A DNA stretch of 20,131 nucleotides from IMG/VR virus record IMGVR_UViG_3300028388_002640, positions 1 through 20,131 of that record; one strand, given 5' to 3'. Source of the stretch: a virus. The position numbers and the translations under genes are program-made. Positions 12,492 to 20,131 of this stretch are shown here, in pieces. Position 1 is the stretch's first letter. Each line of letters begins with the position of its first letter. Below the pieces are notes generated by a model, which had not been told where the DNA came from, did no database searches, and saw only the letters and a program-made list of their open reading frames with translations.

Positions 12492-13499
12492 TTACGCCTT
12501 CTCTTTGTAATAAGGTTCTAATACTGTTTCTTTTAGTGATGTAGCAATAGCCCTCATCATAAGCGGTGGTACAGAATTACCAATACGCGCCCACTGATTT
12601 GCAAACGTGCCATGTAGTTTATAGTCATCAGGGAAAGACTGAAGACGTTTGAGTTCTTCAATAGTCAAATGCCTGTTCTCCACAGGGTGTATTAAGCCAG
12701 CTGAATTAGTAATCAGTTTCAAAACAGTTTTTGACGGTTTATTGTACCCGATTCTTACAATTCCGAACCCTTTGCCTTCGCCTAGTATGTCTTCTGCGGT
12801 TCTCCAGTTCTTAATTTGTTTAAACAACTCTATTACTGACATACCTTTTCTTTTGCCTTTTGTATAGTCGAAAGGTGGGAAAGTTTTGTTTTCCACCTTC
12901 TCAAACGCTTCGCGTACTGTTACGATTTTGTCAGAAGGTTTTGGATATTCAAACTCATATTGGATGTCATCACGAACACCTACAAATATAAGCCGCTCTC
13001 GGGATTGCGCTACTCCGTAGTATTTCGCATTCATGAGTTTGCATTTTACACGATAACCGCATTCCTGTAGTGTACTCATTATTATTTTCCACATCCCTTT
13101 CATCTTGCCTTGAGTCATTCCCGATACGTTTTCCATAACAAACGCTTTGGGTTGTATTCCTTTTATAAGCACAGCATACGCTTTAAAAAGTTCGTTTCGG
13201 CTGTCGCCAACATCCCGCTCCCCACAAACAGAAAACCCTTGGCATGGTGGGCTCCCATCTAGTACGTCTAGTTCCCCTTGCGTGATGTTAAGTTCTTTCA
13301 TCATTTCTTCAGCAGAAACTGTCGTTATATCACGATTCCAAACAGGAAAATTAAAATTATCTTCCAATGTCTCGCAAGCGTTGTTATCCCATTCAATCGC
13401 TAGAAGTTCGTTATATCCAGCTATTTTGTAACCAATCGAAGAACCACCCCCACCCGCAAAGGTTGAAATAACTGTCGGGGTTACCATACTACCACTCAT
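12492..13499 (-). CDS. C5-cytosine DNA methyltransferase (Dcm/HhaI family)
   Basis: 335 residues. It transfers a methyl group from SAM to cytosine C5 in DNA. All main family motifs are present: I FAGGGGSSIG (14-23, SAM binding), IV GSPPCQGFS with catalytic C86, VI MENV (E123), VIII AQSRERLIFVGV (164-175), IX HLTIEELKRLQSFPDDY and X IGNSVPPLM (306-314). The target recognition part between VIII and IX is short, so the site cannot be guessed. No partner restriction enzyme lies next to it, so a likely job is shielding phage DNA from host restriction. By hand count its lines are about 37-47% GC against 45-62% in sampled neighbours, which suggests later gain. The ATG at 13499 overlaps the ParB-like gene by 11 bases; an ATG at 13487 is an alternative start. 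Confidence 0.93.
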   Translation of the reverse strand: MSGSMVTPTVISTFAGGGGSSIGYKIAGYNELLAIEWDNNACETLEDNFNFPVWNRDITTVSAEEMMKELNITQGELDVLDGSPPCQGFSVCGERDVGDSRNELFKAYAVLIKGIQPKAFVMENVSGMTQGKMKGMWKIIMSTLQECGYRVKCKLMNAKYYGVAQSRERLIFVGVRDDIQYEFEYPKPSDKIVTVREAFEKVENKTFPPFDYTKGKRKGMSVIELFKQIKNWRTAEDILGEGKGFGIVRIGYNKPSKTVLKLITNSAGLIHPVENRHLTIEELKRLQSFPDDYKLHGTFANQWARIGNSVPPLMMRAIATSLKETVLEPYYKEKA

Positions 13500-13995
13500 A
13501 TCCGCATTTTGGGCATTTGTGGTCTGTGTCTATATCAGTTATTTCTTTTTCGCCATCGCCTGCTGTTTCAGTCTCAATCCCAACTTTACTAATCTCGTCA
13601 AACTCGAGAAAGTCAAGGTCGCAATCTATCTCGTCCAACTCCACCGATAACATCGGCACGTCCCATGTCGCGAGTTCGCCGGTCTTGTTGTCAACAATAC
13701 GGTAAGCTTTGCACTCGTCTTCTGATAGCCACCTACCGTTCTTCTGTGCCGGTTGTATCCATACATGTTGTTCTTTCAACGAGTTCAGAGCGGCGTGTCG
13801 AGTATGTCCCACAACTATGACTCCGTCTTTATCAATCACGATAGGTTGCTGTTGCCCGTATCTCCGTATGCTTTCCGCTACCGGCTTCACCGCCTGCTCG
13901 TTATGACGCGGGTTGCGCTCATAAGGCGTGATTGCCTCTATCTGTACCATCAGACGGTCGCCGTCAACCCATGTTTCGTGTCCGTTAATTGTCAT
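13489..13995 (-). CDS. ParB/Srx-domain protein with C-terminal zinc knuckle
   Basis: 168 residues. Residues about 15-110 are a ParB-like domain: ITPYERNPRHNEQAVKPVAE, SIRRYGQQQPIVIDKDG, VVGHTRHAAL (GHTR box at 63-66), then YRIVDNKTGELATWD and an acidic stretch to about 157. It ends KCPKCGYEW (C161, C164), a half zinc ribbon at the very C-terminus. Recent work shows that ParB-fold domains bind and hydrolyse CTP or ATP. In phages this type is often fused to, or next to, DNA methyltransferases, and here it lies just before one. A role in DNA modification or its control is more likely than partitioning, since no ParA gene is seen. The ATG at 13995 has SD GGGGTGA and overlaps the previous gene by 11 bases. 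Confidence 0.85.
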   Translation of the reverse strand: MTINGHETWVDGDRLMVQIEAITPYERNPRHNEQAVKPVAESIRRYGQQQPIVIDKDGVIVVGHTRHAALNSLKEQHVWIQPAQKNGRWLSEDECKAYRIVDNKTGELATWDVPMLSVELDEIDCDLDFLEFDEISKVGIETETAGDGEKEITDIDTDHKCPKCGYEW

Positions 13996-14483: not shown

Positions 14484-16817
14484 TTATACGTCGTATGTCA
14501 TGCCTACATCGATATCCGCGTAGTCTACCGAGCCCGGTGAGCCGCATGTGAAACGAACGATAAACCCTTCGCTGCCCGAACCGTTGATGGCAGTGCTTAA
14601 CTCCGCACGTTTATACGCGAACGGTTCCCCGTTTGTAATGTCGGATTCTGCCCCGTGGTCGGTATTCATATCGCATATGACCCCGTCTCCGGGTACAAAA
14701 GCCGCCGCGCTATAAGACCAACCGGTTAAACTGTGTTTGAGTAGTTCAATGTTAAAACCTGTGTCGCTTGAACCAGACTTCCCCTCGACTTCAAAATCTG
14801 TGATTGTGAAATCACGATTGCCGTTGTCGTCATATTTCGCGAACCCATAGTTAAAATCCAGCGAGTATGTTGTCGGTGTCCCTGTAACTGTGTAAAGTTC
14901 GAACGTTACCGTGCCTAGCCATTTTTTGGCTGTCTCTAGATATCCATCTAAGGTGAGAGACGTTATGTCATCTGTAAGTACTTCGCTATCGGTTGCCGTT
15001 CGCACTCCGCCGTCTGTTATGCTTGTTCCCGTTACCCTCAAGCCGACTTGTCCTGCGTCAACCGTCCCCGCCCCGCCAGCAACAATAAAAGCATGCGCGG
15101 CGTATGAATTGGTTGAGCTCCCGTATGTTTGTGTCAGACTTGCGTTTGTTAGCGTTACGTCTGTCGCGGGCGCGTCGTAAAACCCGAAGACATAAAAGGA
15201 ACCCGTTGCGTTTGGACTGCGGAAAAATGCGGACTTAAAATTGAGTGTTTTCGTCAACGTGTGTTCTATGTTCGCACTATCGAGATAGTATAATTCACCG
15301 TCAGACTTTGCGTACATTTGCCCATACCCTGTGCGCGCCGCCGGCTTTGTCAGCGTCTCCGAAAAATGTACGTACGAAGCGAACTCCGTTATACCGCTGT
15401 TATGTAGCCCGATATTTAATGTCCCACCTCGAGACGGCTCTTCAATGTAGAGACCGTATTGATTTGCGACTGATACATTCGCTCCCAACGCGCTTAGATC
15501 TTGATAGTAGTACCCGTATAAGTTTGTTACTGCTAGAGAGCCCCCACTTGTGATTGCCGTGGAGAAGTCTGTGTTCGCGTAAAACTCCGAAACCCCAACG
15601 AACGTCGCCGGCGCCGATAAAGCCGAGCTGTTGACAACCCCGCAACGGTTGCTTGCCAATGAAATCGGCGTAAAACTCCACGTGCCTGTTCCCGGGTTGA
15701 TACTTGGTGAGTTAAGAAGAGACGCGGATACCGCGGTTGTGTTGCTACTATCAACTACTTGCCCAACTGTTCGAACCACGCTTGACGAACTGTCCGACAA
15801 ATTGCGGTATACTGTAAGCGCATTGAAAATATTTGTCGAACGTCGAAGAGAAATAGAACTCCCAAAATCGGCTACATTAACACCTCCGCCCGCTGCGATA
15901 CCAAGTGTATTGTCTCCCGAACGATAAACGCCGAGGTCTGTGTCGCTTTGGAATGTGAACGCCGGTGAAGATGATGAGCCGTCAAACGCAAAAACGTTCG
16001 GCGGATAGAAATCACCGTTAGATAGCCAGTATGTCAATTCGCTGTTTGTGGCGAGTGATAAAGAGCCGTCTGTCGGGTCTATGGAAAAAATGTAATTGCG
16101 TTCCGAAGCTGCCGCGTCCGCCGTTATCTGCCAATAATCAGACGCAATTATACTATACGGTTTTGTAAGCGCACCGACCGTTATTGTCTTCCCTGCACCA
16201 ACCGAAAAATCATCCGAAAGAGTTACCGGCTTCCCAACTGTGCCGTCAAGCAAGTCGTCGAGTAGTTGCAAAGCCTTGCGTGTATCCGTTTCGGTATTTG
16301 TCAAGATTGCGCCGTTGAATGTGCCTGCGGGCGTATAGATATCGAGTAGCCCGCCGTCATTAACTTTCCCCCCAGCGACACCGTCTTTGTCGGCAAGTGT
16401 TAACCCGTCAGTATCGCGCGCGCGGAATGCGTCGCTTGCGAAATACTTGCCGTCTGCCATCCCCTGGTCGCTTGCGAACCAATCCCCTAAACGAGACCAA
16501 GCGGCACCGTCGCTACGATATACGCCTGCTTCTTTTTTTGTCCCAAGTAAAAAAACACCTGTCGTCGTTTTCACGACGTAGTATTCGTCAGCGTGGTCTG
16601 CCGCGGCGGGGAGGTCTGCGTATGTTGATACCTCACCGGCTATCGCGATACCTCCTCCTATGAGGGAGTTAGAAGAGCCGTCCCACCAATATATATTATT
16701 ATTGTAACGGTAGAGACGCGGGTCGCCACTTGTAACAAGTGCCGCGGTCTCCGCAAACGGTAGTTGAGAGACAGTAACTAATCCTATCGCCCCTTGCGCT
16801 GTTCCGGAATATGCCAT
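14484..16817 (-). CDS. Large fibre-like virion protein (putative tail fibre or appendage)
   Basis: 777 residues, rich in Gly, Ser, Thr and Asp, with repeated short beta motifs typical of trimeric fibres. At about 67-112 there is TYADLPAAADHADEYYVV with GVYRSDGAAWSRLG, a small module common in phage fibres. At 293-312 DTDLGVYRSGDNTLGIAAGG and at about 430-480 VTNLYGYYY, VANQYGLYI and TLNIGLHNSG give the YGLY-type repeats of fibre shafts. The C-terminal 200 residues look like a beta-sandwich tip; no chaperone domain such as peptidase S74 is visible. The SD (GGAGGAG) is strong. It lies between early genes and the terminase, away from the tail genes, so a head fibre is also possible. Receptor binding is inferred. 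Confidence 0.65.
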   Translation of the reverse strand: MAYSGTAQGAIGLVTVSQLPFAETAALVTSGDPRLYRYNNNIYWWDGSSNSLIGGGIAIAGEVSTYADLPAAADHADEYYVVKTTTGVFLLGTKKEAGVYRSDGAAWSRLGDWFASDQGMADGKYFASDAFRARDTDGLTLADKDGVAGGKVNDGGLLDIYTPAGTFNGAILTNTETDTRKALQLLDDLLDGTVGKPVTLSDDFSVGAGKTITVGALTKPYSIIASDYWQITADAAASERNYIFSIDPTDGSLSLATNSELTYWLSNGDFYPPNVFAFDGSSSSPAFTFQSDTDLGVYRSGDNTLGIAAGGGVNVADFGSSISLRRSTNIFNALTVYRNLSDSSSSVVRTVGQVVDSSNTTAVSASLLNSPSINPGTGTWSFTPISLASNRCGVVNSSALSAPATFVGVSEFYANTDFSTAITSGGSLAVTNLYGYYYQDLSALGANVSVANQYGLYIEEPSRGGTLNIGLHNSGITEFASYVHFSETLTKPAARTGYGQMYAKSDGELYYLDSANIEHTLTKTLNFKSAFFRSPNATGSFYVFGFYDAPATDVTLTNASLTQTYGSSTNSYAAHAFIVAGGAGTVDAGQVGLRVTGTSITDGGVRTATDSEVLTDDITSLTLDGYLETAKKWLGTVTFELYTVTGTPTTYSLDFNYGFAKYDDNGNRDFTITDFEVEGKSGSSDTGFNIELLKHSLTGWSYSAAAFVPGDGVICDMNTDHGAESDITNGEPFAYKRAELSTAINGSGSEGFIVRFTCGSPGSVDYADIDVGMTYDV

Positions 16818-18316: not shown

Positions 18317-18600
18317 CTTACTCTATCCTTTGCGTATTCAATTTGTCGTATCGCCGCGTTATGTATCATGGTGTTCCCACGAACAGATGATTGCATTGCG
18401 ACTGCGTTTCTCATCTCCGTTTTATGCGCCCTCTTGTGGCACCGAGCACAAAGAGGGAATAGCGTTAGCCCTAGTATTTCATTTGCATTACCAAGCCGCT
18501 TATTATGTTGTCTTCCGTACGCGTGATGCATTTCGCTATACTCCTCCCCGCATATAACACAGCGCTCGCCAAAAGTTTTTTTTGCTTCTGTAATGTTCAA
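18313..18600 (-). CDS. HNH endonuclease, small phage type
   Basis: 95 residues with a full HNH core: CVICG (C14, C17), MHHAYGR (H25, H26), N40 and PLCARCHKRAH (C51, C54, H55, H59). The four cysteines form a structural zinc site and the histidines the active site. It sits between the helicase loader and VRR-NUC, not beside the terminase, so a replication or recombination role is more likely than a packaging role; a free-standing homing enzyme cannot be excluded. The start is a TTG at 18600, overlapping the previous stop as TTGA, nine bases after a clear GGAGGG SD. No in-frame ATG is better: the next one is at residue 24, inside the active site. Confidence 0.85.
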   Translation of the reverse strand: MNITEAKKTFGERCVICGEEYSEMHHAYGRQHNKRLGNANEILGLTLFPLCARCHKRAHKTEMRNAVAMQSSVRGNTMIHNAAIRQIEYAKDRVR

Positions 18601-19400
18601 CCATTTTTTCCCTCCAAAAAAATAAACTCCGCACCCTCTCGTATCCTGTTATAGAGAGCGTCTATATCGCCGGTGTCGTCATATCCACGCCATAAGTCGC
18701 CAAGCAACTCATCTGATGTGTACACCGTAGGAAGCCCGTTGCTTCTCCGATAGTCAAGTATCGGATATATAACGTTGCTGTATAGTGCCGGCGTTAGTTT
18801 CGATTTTGAGATGTCATCCCAAAATAAAACCCCGCACGTGCTTGCTCTCTCAACACGCGCTTGCATTTTCTCCGCCGGGACTAATTCGTATCGAGTCCAT
18901 GAACATACATCGCTGCCACGAATGAAGTATGTATCACCCCCGCTAAAAAGAGCCGCCCTCATCATACAAGTGAGCAAGTGAGTTTTCCCTGTGCCACTCT
19001 CTCCGCTTATGAAGACTGTCCGCCTTTGTCGAGTCGCTATCCATGTTTCGAAAAAATTCTTAACCGATTCATCACACCAGCGAAACTGTTCGATTGTCTT
19101 CTCCGCGTATTTTTCACCAACGCGTTTTTTTATCAAGGATACAAGCCGCGCTTTATGCTCCGCTTTTTCTCTTGCTCTTTCGGCTTGCTTTTCCAACTCG
19201 TCAATCTCCGCTAATTCAGGTTGCATGACGCAATCGCAAGGATACGTTATCTCTTTGAGTACAGACGCAAGAGCACCAGACGGCGCGGTTGTTATCATTC
19301 CTGTCCAATCGCACTTTTCGCACCCTTCCCCGTTCGCACGTTTTTCTTCTTGCGCGTCTTTTAGTTTTTTGATACGCGCATTGATTTCTCTCAACTCCAT
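18597..19400 (-). CDS. DnaC-like helicase loader ATPase
   Basis: 267 residues, AAA+ family (DnaC/IstB-like). It probably loads the replicative helicase at the phage origin. Residues 20-60 carry a zinc site (CEKC at 27-30, CDC at 55-57), then a charged linker helix (residues 65-95). The ATPase part shows Walker A GESGTGKT (133-140), Walker B VLFWDD (191-196), a sensor-type PTVYTSDE (224-231) and R252 in LYNRIRE as a likely arginine finger. Length is usual for the family. The ATG at 19400 has SD GAGGAG. It lies six bases after the initiator, the same order as O-P in lambda. No helicase gene is seen in this window. Confidence 0.88.
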   Translation of the reverse strand: MELREINARIKKLKDAQEEKRANGEGCEKCDWTGMITTAPSGALASVLKEITYPCDCVMQPELAEIDELEKQAERAREKAEHKARLVSLIKKRVGEKYAEKTIEQFRWCDESVKNFFETWIATRQRRTVFISGESGTGKTHLLTCMMRAALFSGGDTYFIRGSDVCSWTRYELVPAEKMQARVERASTCGVLFWDDISKSKLTPALYSNVIYPILDYRRSNGLPTVYTSDELLGDLWRGYDDTGDIDALYNRIREGAEFIFLEGKNG

Positions 19401-19406
19401 TTTTTT

Positions 19407-20131
19407 TTACTCCTCTTTATTTTTTTCTCTTTCCCGGCGGGCGGCGTTCTCACGGTTATACCTTTCTGCTTCTTCTTTCATCCGGCGCCGTTTATCCTCT
19501 CGTTTCCGTTCTATTTCATCCTGTGAGGGCTTTTTCTTTTTGTTTTTTGTTGCGTTCGCAATCATTATGTCGCATACGTTTTTCTCGCTCCACCCCTGTT
19601 CGCATGCTTGCCGTATATCACTCTCCCCGAGAGAGTATTTGTCTATGATAGATATCACCCGTGTATACATAGACTCCCGGGGGTACGCACATTTCACTGC
19701 CTCATATACGCGACAAAATGTAAGCCATGATTTGTTTTTGCTTTTCGATGCGCTGGTGTTTTGATTTTCTTCGGAACCCTTTTTTATATTAATACTTGTA
19801 TTATTAATACTTGTAATATTCTCTTTATCATTTGTGATAATAGGGGTCTTATAATTTCCGTAAATAGGGGTATTATCATTTGCGATAATAGGGGTATTAT
19901 CATTTGCTGGGGTAGGCGCTGCTTTCCCAGCGATATACAACCTGCGCTGTTTTATCTCTTTTCCTTCCCGTATTATTTGCGCACTAAGATACCCTAATTT
20001 TACAAGTTTCGATATCCATCTACTTATTGTTACTTTCGTAACTCCGTAAAGGTCTGCAAGATACGCGTTAGAAGGGTACGCGTATCCGTGCTTATTCGAA
20101 AGGCATGTGATCTCTCCGTATAGCAGTTTTT
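19407..20131 (-). CDS. Phage replication initiator with N-terminal HTH, 5' end outside window
   Basis: The frame is open to the window edge, so the true start lies beyond 20131. The visible part begins KLLYGEITCLSNKHGYAYPS and continues NAYLADLYGVTKVTISRWIS, a winged-helix DNA-binding domain of the type found in phage replication initiators (19986-20077 holds the helix-turn-helix). After it comes a low-complexity linker rich in ANDNTPII-like repeats, then a middle domain (WLTFCRVYEAVKCAYP, DIRQACEQGWSEKNVCDIMI) and a highly charged C-terminal helix (KREDKRRRMKEEAERYNRE) that may contact the loader. A TTG at 19940 could start a shorter version, but that would drop the HTH. The linker DNA has iterons, so the protein probably binds its own gene, like lambda O. 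Confidence 0.8.
   Translation of the reverse strand, partial: KLLYGEITCLSNKHGYAYPSNAYLADLYGVTKVTISRWISKLVKLGYLSAQIIREGKEIKQRRLYIAGKAAPTPANDNTPIIANDNTPIYGNYKTPIITNDKENITSINNTSINIKKGSEENQNTSASKSKNKSWLTFCRVYEAVKCAYPRESMYTRVISIIDKYSLGESDIRQACEQGWSEKNVCDIMIANATKNKKKKPSQDEIERKREDKRRRMKEEAERYNRENAARREREKNKEE
19783..19822. repeat. AT-rich stretch with two 15-base repeats, possible unwinding element
   Basis: Directly beside the iterons, on the side towards the helicase loader gene, lies an almost pure A/T run with two copies (19787-19800 and 19802-19815, period 15) of TATTAATACTTGTA read on the plus strand. In lambda-type origins the AT-rich melting region also follows the iterons. It is still coding (TSINNTSINI in the initiator linker). 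Confidence 0.6.
19812..19907. repeat. Iteron-like 24-base repeats, putative replication origin
   Basis: On the minus strand, four consecutive 24-base units occupy 19884-19907, 19860-19883, 19836-19859 and 19812-19835. The first has a perfect dyad, GATAATA CCCC TATTATC. Units two and three keep the CCCC centre with imperfect arms. The fourth is degenerate, keeping ACAAATGATAA. They encode an 8-residue peptide repeat of the ANDNTPII type in the initiator linker. Lambda has the same layout: palindromic iterons inside the O gene. Confidence 0.75.

Follow-up and report, generated by a model that had tools for sequence, protein, structure and literature searches.

Why does a gene for a phage replication initiator carry an array of short, dyad-containing repeats in its coding sequence? 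An earlier sequence-only reading of this locus had proposed a replication origin embedded in the gene, as in lambda O. We followed this up in the window, by which we mean the whole 20,131-base stretch of DNA analyzed, a complete IMG/VR record that is classed as linear, i.e., a phage fragment. Our main conclusion, which we hold with a probability of roughly 90%, is that the repeats are a theta-type phage replication origin of the lambda O kind, inside the initiator gene and bound by the initiator itself. This conclusion is drawn from comparative sequence analysis.

The repeat array and its gene neighborhood

The replication region of the window is on the minus strand. The initiator gene is its last gene and is cut at the 5' end by the end of the contig, and the N terminus of the protein is absent from the window. 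A helix-turn-helix (HTH) initiator had been expected around the repeats, and the protein did match the HTH_36 family of Pfam (PF13730; 5.2e-12; 45.8 bits against a cut-off of 25). It also matched three PHROGs, phrog_19658, phrog_270, and phrog_428, all of them for replication initiation. The gene for a DnaC-like helicase loader starts six bases 3' of the initiator gene. Therefore, the O/ori/P layout described in the sequence-only reading is present, with an initiator, in-gene repeats, an AT-rich stretch, and then a loader gene (Table 1).

The array is in the linker coding region, which separates the HTH domain from the C-terminal part. Four 24-base units had been described there. Three are whole, but only half of the fourth is preserved. 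The 22-mer core of the units is present in three copies, compared to 0.00 in shuffled sequences. A perfect GATAATA-CCCC-TATTATC palindrome occurs in one unit only (P = 0.005 under synonymous recoding). Perfect dyads with two 5-base arms and a 6-base core numbered 3 in the window region, with 0.20 expected (P = 2e-4). An exact 18-mer search of viral sequences returned six matches, three in homologous initiators and three in unrelated genes.

The 45 nucleotides past the last dyad are 87% AT, compared to 59% for the whole gene, and the AT content in the window is above the synonymous expectation (0.84 versus 0.77). Two 15-base repeats had been noticed in this AT-rich stretch, and they are indeed tandem 15-mers (19802-19816 and 19787-19801) that are 93% identical.

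Table 1. Features of the replication region of the window
Feature	Position	Strand	Basis
DnaC/IstB-like AAA+ helicase-loader gene	18597..19400	-	phrog_50 (DnaC-like) 9.4e-26; PF01695 1.4e-7
Replication initiator gene, encoding an N-terminal winged-helix domain (HTH_36), a disordered linker, and a helical C-terminal part	19407..20131	-	PF13730, PHROGs, AlphaFold
Two tandem 15-mers (TTACAAGTATTAATA / ATACAAGTATTAATA), proposed DNA-unwinding element	19787..19816	-	
Fourth unit, only the first half (ACAAATGATAA) preserved, runs into the AT-rich stretch	19812..19835	-	
Proposed iteron adjoining the AT-rich stretch, perfect dyad TTATC-ACAAAT-GATAA	19825..19840	-	
24-bp unit 3, GGAAATTATAAGACCCCTATTATC	19836..19859	-	Sequence repeat
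Proposed iteron, degenerate, TTTAC-GGAAAT-TATAA	19849..19864	-	
24-bp unit 2, GCAAATGATAATACCCCTATTTAC	19860..19883	-	Sequence repeat
Proposed iteron, perfect A-centered dyad TTATC-GCAAAT-GATAA	19873..19888	-	
24-bp unit 1, GCAAATGATAATACCCCTATTATC	19884..19907	-	Sequence repeat
Predicted recognition helix KVTISRWISKLVKL, model residues 32-45	19995..20036	-	AlphaFold helix H32-45

Two other parts of the window's minus strand are recorded here as observations. A gene for a 777-amino-acid protein without a PHROG match (14484-16817) sits between methyltransferase/ParB-like genes and the replication genes. The protein may be of the tail or receptor-binding type, which is a guess from reading it. 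Upstream of the terminase genes, at 12492-13995, a C5-cytosine DNA methyltransferase adjoins a ParB-N-like protein.

Related initiators share one dyad design

We used tblastn to gather relatives of the initiator from viral contigs and from prophages in bacterial genomes. A profile of the winged HTH (wHTH) domain found it in 496 of 502 sequences, and 157 were left after dereplication by linker DNA. Homologous initiators came from Staphylococcus, Macrococcus, lactobacilli, Enterococcus, Lactococcus, Clostridia, and Erysipelotrichaceae. Others were in Fusobacterium, Treponema, Brachyspira, Flavobacterium, and Aquimarina records and in many metagenomic viral contigs. Among the 157 dereplicated linkers, initiators with the dyad design come from several bacterial phyla. 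The next gene encodes a helicase rather than a helicase loader in some relatives.

When the linkers were compared side by side, a single design emerged. A CC-rich spacer (usually TACCCCTA) and the dyad arm5-NNAAAN-arm5' recur with a period of 23 to 24, and an AT-rich stretch follows, often with AATAATACAAGTATTAAT. Phages differ in their arms, and a change on one side of the dyad is matched on the other. Arm types included TTATC or TTAAC (the window type), TTGAC, TTAAA, TTGAA, TGTAC, TAGAC, TAGGC, TCCAC, CGGGC, GTATC, and others. A clear arm call was lacking in 65 of the 157 linkers (about 40%), several of which show repeats by eye.

The AT-rich stretch exceeded the AT content predicted by synonymous codon usage in 77 of 89 homologues. 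Within it, the element AATAATACAAGTATTAATAATACAAGTATTAAT (19787-19816 in the window) is near-identical across phages of different genera and has the strongest synonymous constraint within the initiator gene. Because of these two properties, melting may not be its only role.

The dyad is centered on the A-rich core

What is conserved is a dyad of 16 bp, arm5-NNAAAN-arm5', with TACCCCTA between successive dyads, either as such or as the reverse complement. In a tandem array, a dyad centered on the A core and one centered on CCCC look alike. We compared loop lengths between matching arms, which were picked independently of loop type. A-rich loops were of even length in 83 of 89 cases, whereas C/G-rich loops were of any length. 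An almost invariably even length implies a fixed axis at the core, so the dyad is A centered and CCCC is the spacer. Pairing was also more frequent across the A core than across the C spacer (74 versus 43, a count biased by how the unit was defined). Together, the parity and the pairing rule out CCCC as the family-wide dyad center. Thus, the dyad reported earlier (GATAATA CCCC TATTATC) is real, but its axis is the A-tract, half a unit away from where it had been placed.

Spacers are 6 to 8 nucleotides long, and their orientation can flip to GGGG. All but one of 90 short spacers had CC or GG (66 had CC; 23 had GG only). The spacers between dyads (e.g., 19889-19896 in the window) are mostly TACCCCTA and sometimes GGGGTA, while the arms vary freely. 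A GC clamp, a contact for the wing, or phasing are our guesses for the role of the conserved CC/GG.

Arm bases covary with the start of the recognition helix

If the initiator binds its own repeats, its recognition helix should change with the arms. We calculated mutual information between each wHTH column and each arm base in the 89 initiators with a clear arm, using the remaining wHTH columns as a control for shared ancestry. Helix position +6 was associated with arm base 1 (z = 13.7), position +3 with bases 2 and 3 (z = 10.0 and 12.2, respectively), and position +7 with base 5 (z = 13.9). Each of these positions ranked top among all wHTH columns tested for its arm base; arm base 4 had no strong partner column. 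At +3, V went with TA (14/14), I with TA (4/4), E with TG (16/16), and H with GT (3/3). At +6, S went with T (74/79), R with C (3/3), and K with G (2/2), and at +7, R went with C (41/46) and K with A (12/14). These pairings nearly amount to a code. The window initiator has V at +3, R at +7, and TTATC arms, consistent with V specifying TA and R specifying C.

In the window protein, the residues that covary with the repeat arms by column-wise mutual information are K32, V33, T34, S36, and R37. They open the recognition helix in an AlphaFold model, in which the wHTH domain (residues 1 to 66) has a pLDDT of about 96. The pLDDT of residues 76 to 131 is below 50, and the linker that carries the repeats is predicted to be disordered.

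We also predicted arms from distant relatives, with partners limited to less than 55% identity outside the helix. The five recognition residues predicted 3.32 of the 5 arm bases, compared to 2.40 for the rest of the domain and 2.44 for a random partner. Shared ancestry is therefore not the explanation, because the recognition residues of distant relatives predict the arms and the rest of the domain performs at chance. In a matched-pair test, +3 was again the best column, although the contrast was modest (P = 2e-3), since few pairs share an arm (7 same-arm pairs). Taken together, the arm covariation, the prediction from distant relatives, the position of the helix in the model, and the disordered linker suggest that the initiator itself is the likely binder of the repeats. 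In two distant sequences, one from a Clostridium genome (L174) and one from a metagenomic virus (L362), the rare arm GTATC and a rare Lys at +6 occur together, in what is apparently convergence.

We think it probable, though less certain than the origin itself, that the HTH_36 phage initiators of several phyla are one coevolving lock-and-key family in which +3, +6, and +7 largely specify the arms of the in-gene dyads. A literature search, which covered older and subscription phage papers thinly, found no earlier report of a covariation code or of an HTH_36 origin. As far as that coverage goes, neither the code nor the occurrence of a single dyad design in several phyla has been reported, and we make no claim of priority.

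Binding by the initiator, as judged from covariation, does not by itself show replication. Furthermore, the closest solved folds are winged-helix regulators of the MarR/ArsR type (matches in a PDB profile search were weak). The dyads might then be operators only, bound by the initiator to regulate its own operon while replication starts elsewhere. We consider this unlikely. The sites are deep in a coding region and not at a promoter. They adjoin an AT-rich stretch that is synonymously constrained, and they precede a helicase loader (or helicase) gene. Perfect sites were confined to the initiator gene in all three of the window, phage 77, and phage c5. Finally, the cis requirement in phage 80alpha fits an origin (PMC5499656).

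The repeats are constrained as DNA

The sequence-only reading had also judged that the peptide repeat (ANDNTPII) looks dictated by the DNA. The opposite would be that selection favors a peptide of this type and that the dyad in the DNA follows from it. In favor of this view, a peptide repeat can be seen in the window, units stay in one frame in most genes, and permuting the codons of the window linker alone kept many dyads (P = 0.20). However, 65 linkers together had 470 inverted repeats, compared to 155 ± 15 after synonymous recoding and 247 ± 16 when synonymous codons were permuted within each linker. Units were read in more than one frame in 39 of 72 genes, and all three frames were used overall. 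A single DNA unit was read in several frames in L092, L096, and L111. Because units occur in several frames, peptides of the PIDEK type and the LLTKKSIP type arise from one DNA unit, and peptides are wholly different between clades. Among 34 staphylococcal homologues, synonymous divergence was 0.38 in the wHTH domain, 0.115 in the repeat linker, and 0.057 in the AT-rich part.

These comparisons bear out the earlier claim. Dyads exceed what synonymous recoding leaves, the repeats show reduced synonymous change, and across homologues the dyads are kept while peptides and even reading frames drift. We looked among the homologues for a kept peptide repeat with its dyad broken by synonymous changes. 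None was found, and the reverse was seen, synonymous divergence being lowest over the repeats and the AT-rich part. With the linker also predicted to be disordered and the arms covarying with the HTH domain, selection on the peptide is very improbable and, on these sequence comparisons, already contradicted.

Clustered dyads are typical of operators and packaging sites too, but that these are sites for another DNA-binding protein (a phage repressor or a host factor) or a packaging or recombination signal that lies in the gene by chance is highly improbable, because the arms, even in distant relatives, track the recognition helix encoded by the repeat-bearing gene itself, and a host factor would not vary its site from phage to phage.

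A model for initiation at the proposed in-gene origin

We propose that initiator dimers (dimerization being suggested by the dyad alone) would bind the 16-bp A-centered dyads through their winged-helix domains. Residues at the start of the recognition helix would read the 5-bp arms, in line with the covariation. By analogy with lambda, the loaded array might strain and open the adjoining AT-rich 15-mers. The C-terminal part may recruit the DnaC-like loader encoded by the next gene, and the loader would place the host replicative helicase for theta replication. Initiator and origin would be inherited as one self-matching unit. The gene could tolerate peptides imposed by the DNA because the sites lie in a disordered linker.

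Most temperate phage origins are unmapped. If the lock-and-key family is real, origin specificity could be read from protein sequence, and the origin could be located directly in many uncharacterized temperate phages. Such a sequence rule would narrow each origin down to tens of bases and would match initiators to the origins they serve. Through the covarying helix residues, initiator-origin specificity could be tested directly in vitro, and at small scale. The locus is also a candidate natural case of one DNA stretch that is both protein code and binding site, with the cost borne by a disordered linker.

Comparison with known phage origins

In lambda, the iterons are inverted repeats within gene O, and dimers of the O protein bind them and open the AT-rich region next to them (PMC5043065, PMC7466680). 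The likeness to the window is close. The lambda iterons have an A-tract center (TCCCTC-AAAAC-GAGGGA), lie in the middle of the initiator gene in all three frames, and are spaced by 20 to 24 bp (PMC7466680, PMC5043065). As in the window, they are followed by an AT-rich stretch and then a loader gene. However, the core is 5 nucleotides with 6-bp arms in lambda and 6 nucleotides with 5-bp arms in the window family, which also has the conserved TACCCCTA spacer. The lambda loader is P, whereas the window has a DnaC/IstB-like AAA+ ATPase. The DNA-binding domain of O is PF04492; that of the window initiator is PF13730, and it has no PF04492 match. HMMER and hhalign comparisons of the two initiators gave no match. 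The putative window origin resembles ori-lambda in how it would work, but the domain, the lack of detectable sequence similarity, and the DnaC-like downstream gene set it apart from the lambdoid type. The initiator had been called apparently unrelated. This holds for lambda O at the sequence level, but the protein has matches in other families of phage initiators, some of them labeled O-like.

TP901-1 ORF13 and Tuc2009 Rep (ORF16) bind repeats in their own genes, which act as the phage ori (PMC8965321). ORF13 had a weak HTH_36 match (24.5 bits, cut-off 25). The repeats of both phages differ in sequence from those of the window, and the C-terminal domain of the Tuc2009 protein is a different one (PF06926). 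The initiators of TP901-1, Tuc2009, r1t, and 80alpha did not match our family wHTH profile.

Staphylococcal phages provide a closer comparison. ORF016 of phage 77 is directly homologous and shares the dyad design, with TTGAC arms. The product of the adjoining ORF013, a loader homologue, binds the host helicase (PMC4887207). ORF016 and 80alpha ORF20 both belong to phrog_428, although ORF20 is too distant for the wHTH profile and its in-gene repeats have another sequence. A putative origin is annotated inside ORF20 in the 80alpha record, and ORF20 could not be complemented in trans (PMC5499656). By eye, we saw in-gene dyads in 80alpha (TTTTCCAACGTTGGAAAA and ACCGTTAACGGT; positions 2675-2900 of L505, 9674-9899 of the phage) and in TP901-1 (TTTCC-n7-GGAAA). 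Since such dyads are visible in other initiator clades, the covariation approach may extend past this one.

In SPP1 (gp38/oriL), the initiator gene contains an origin that has repeats and an AT-rich unwinding element (PMC6316719). SPP1 is set apart, by its description rather than by sequence comparison, in that it has direct repeats, a second origin elsewhere, and a phage-encoded DnaB-type helicase. An origin embedded in its initiator gene is thus of a known kind, represented by lambda, SPP1, TP901-1, and 80alpha, and the window family adds to that kind.
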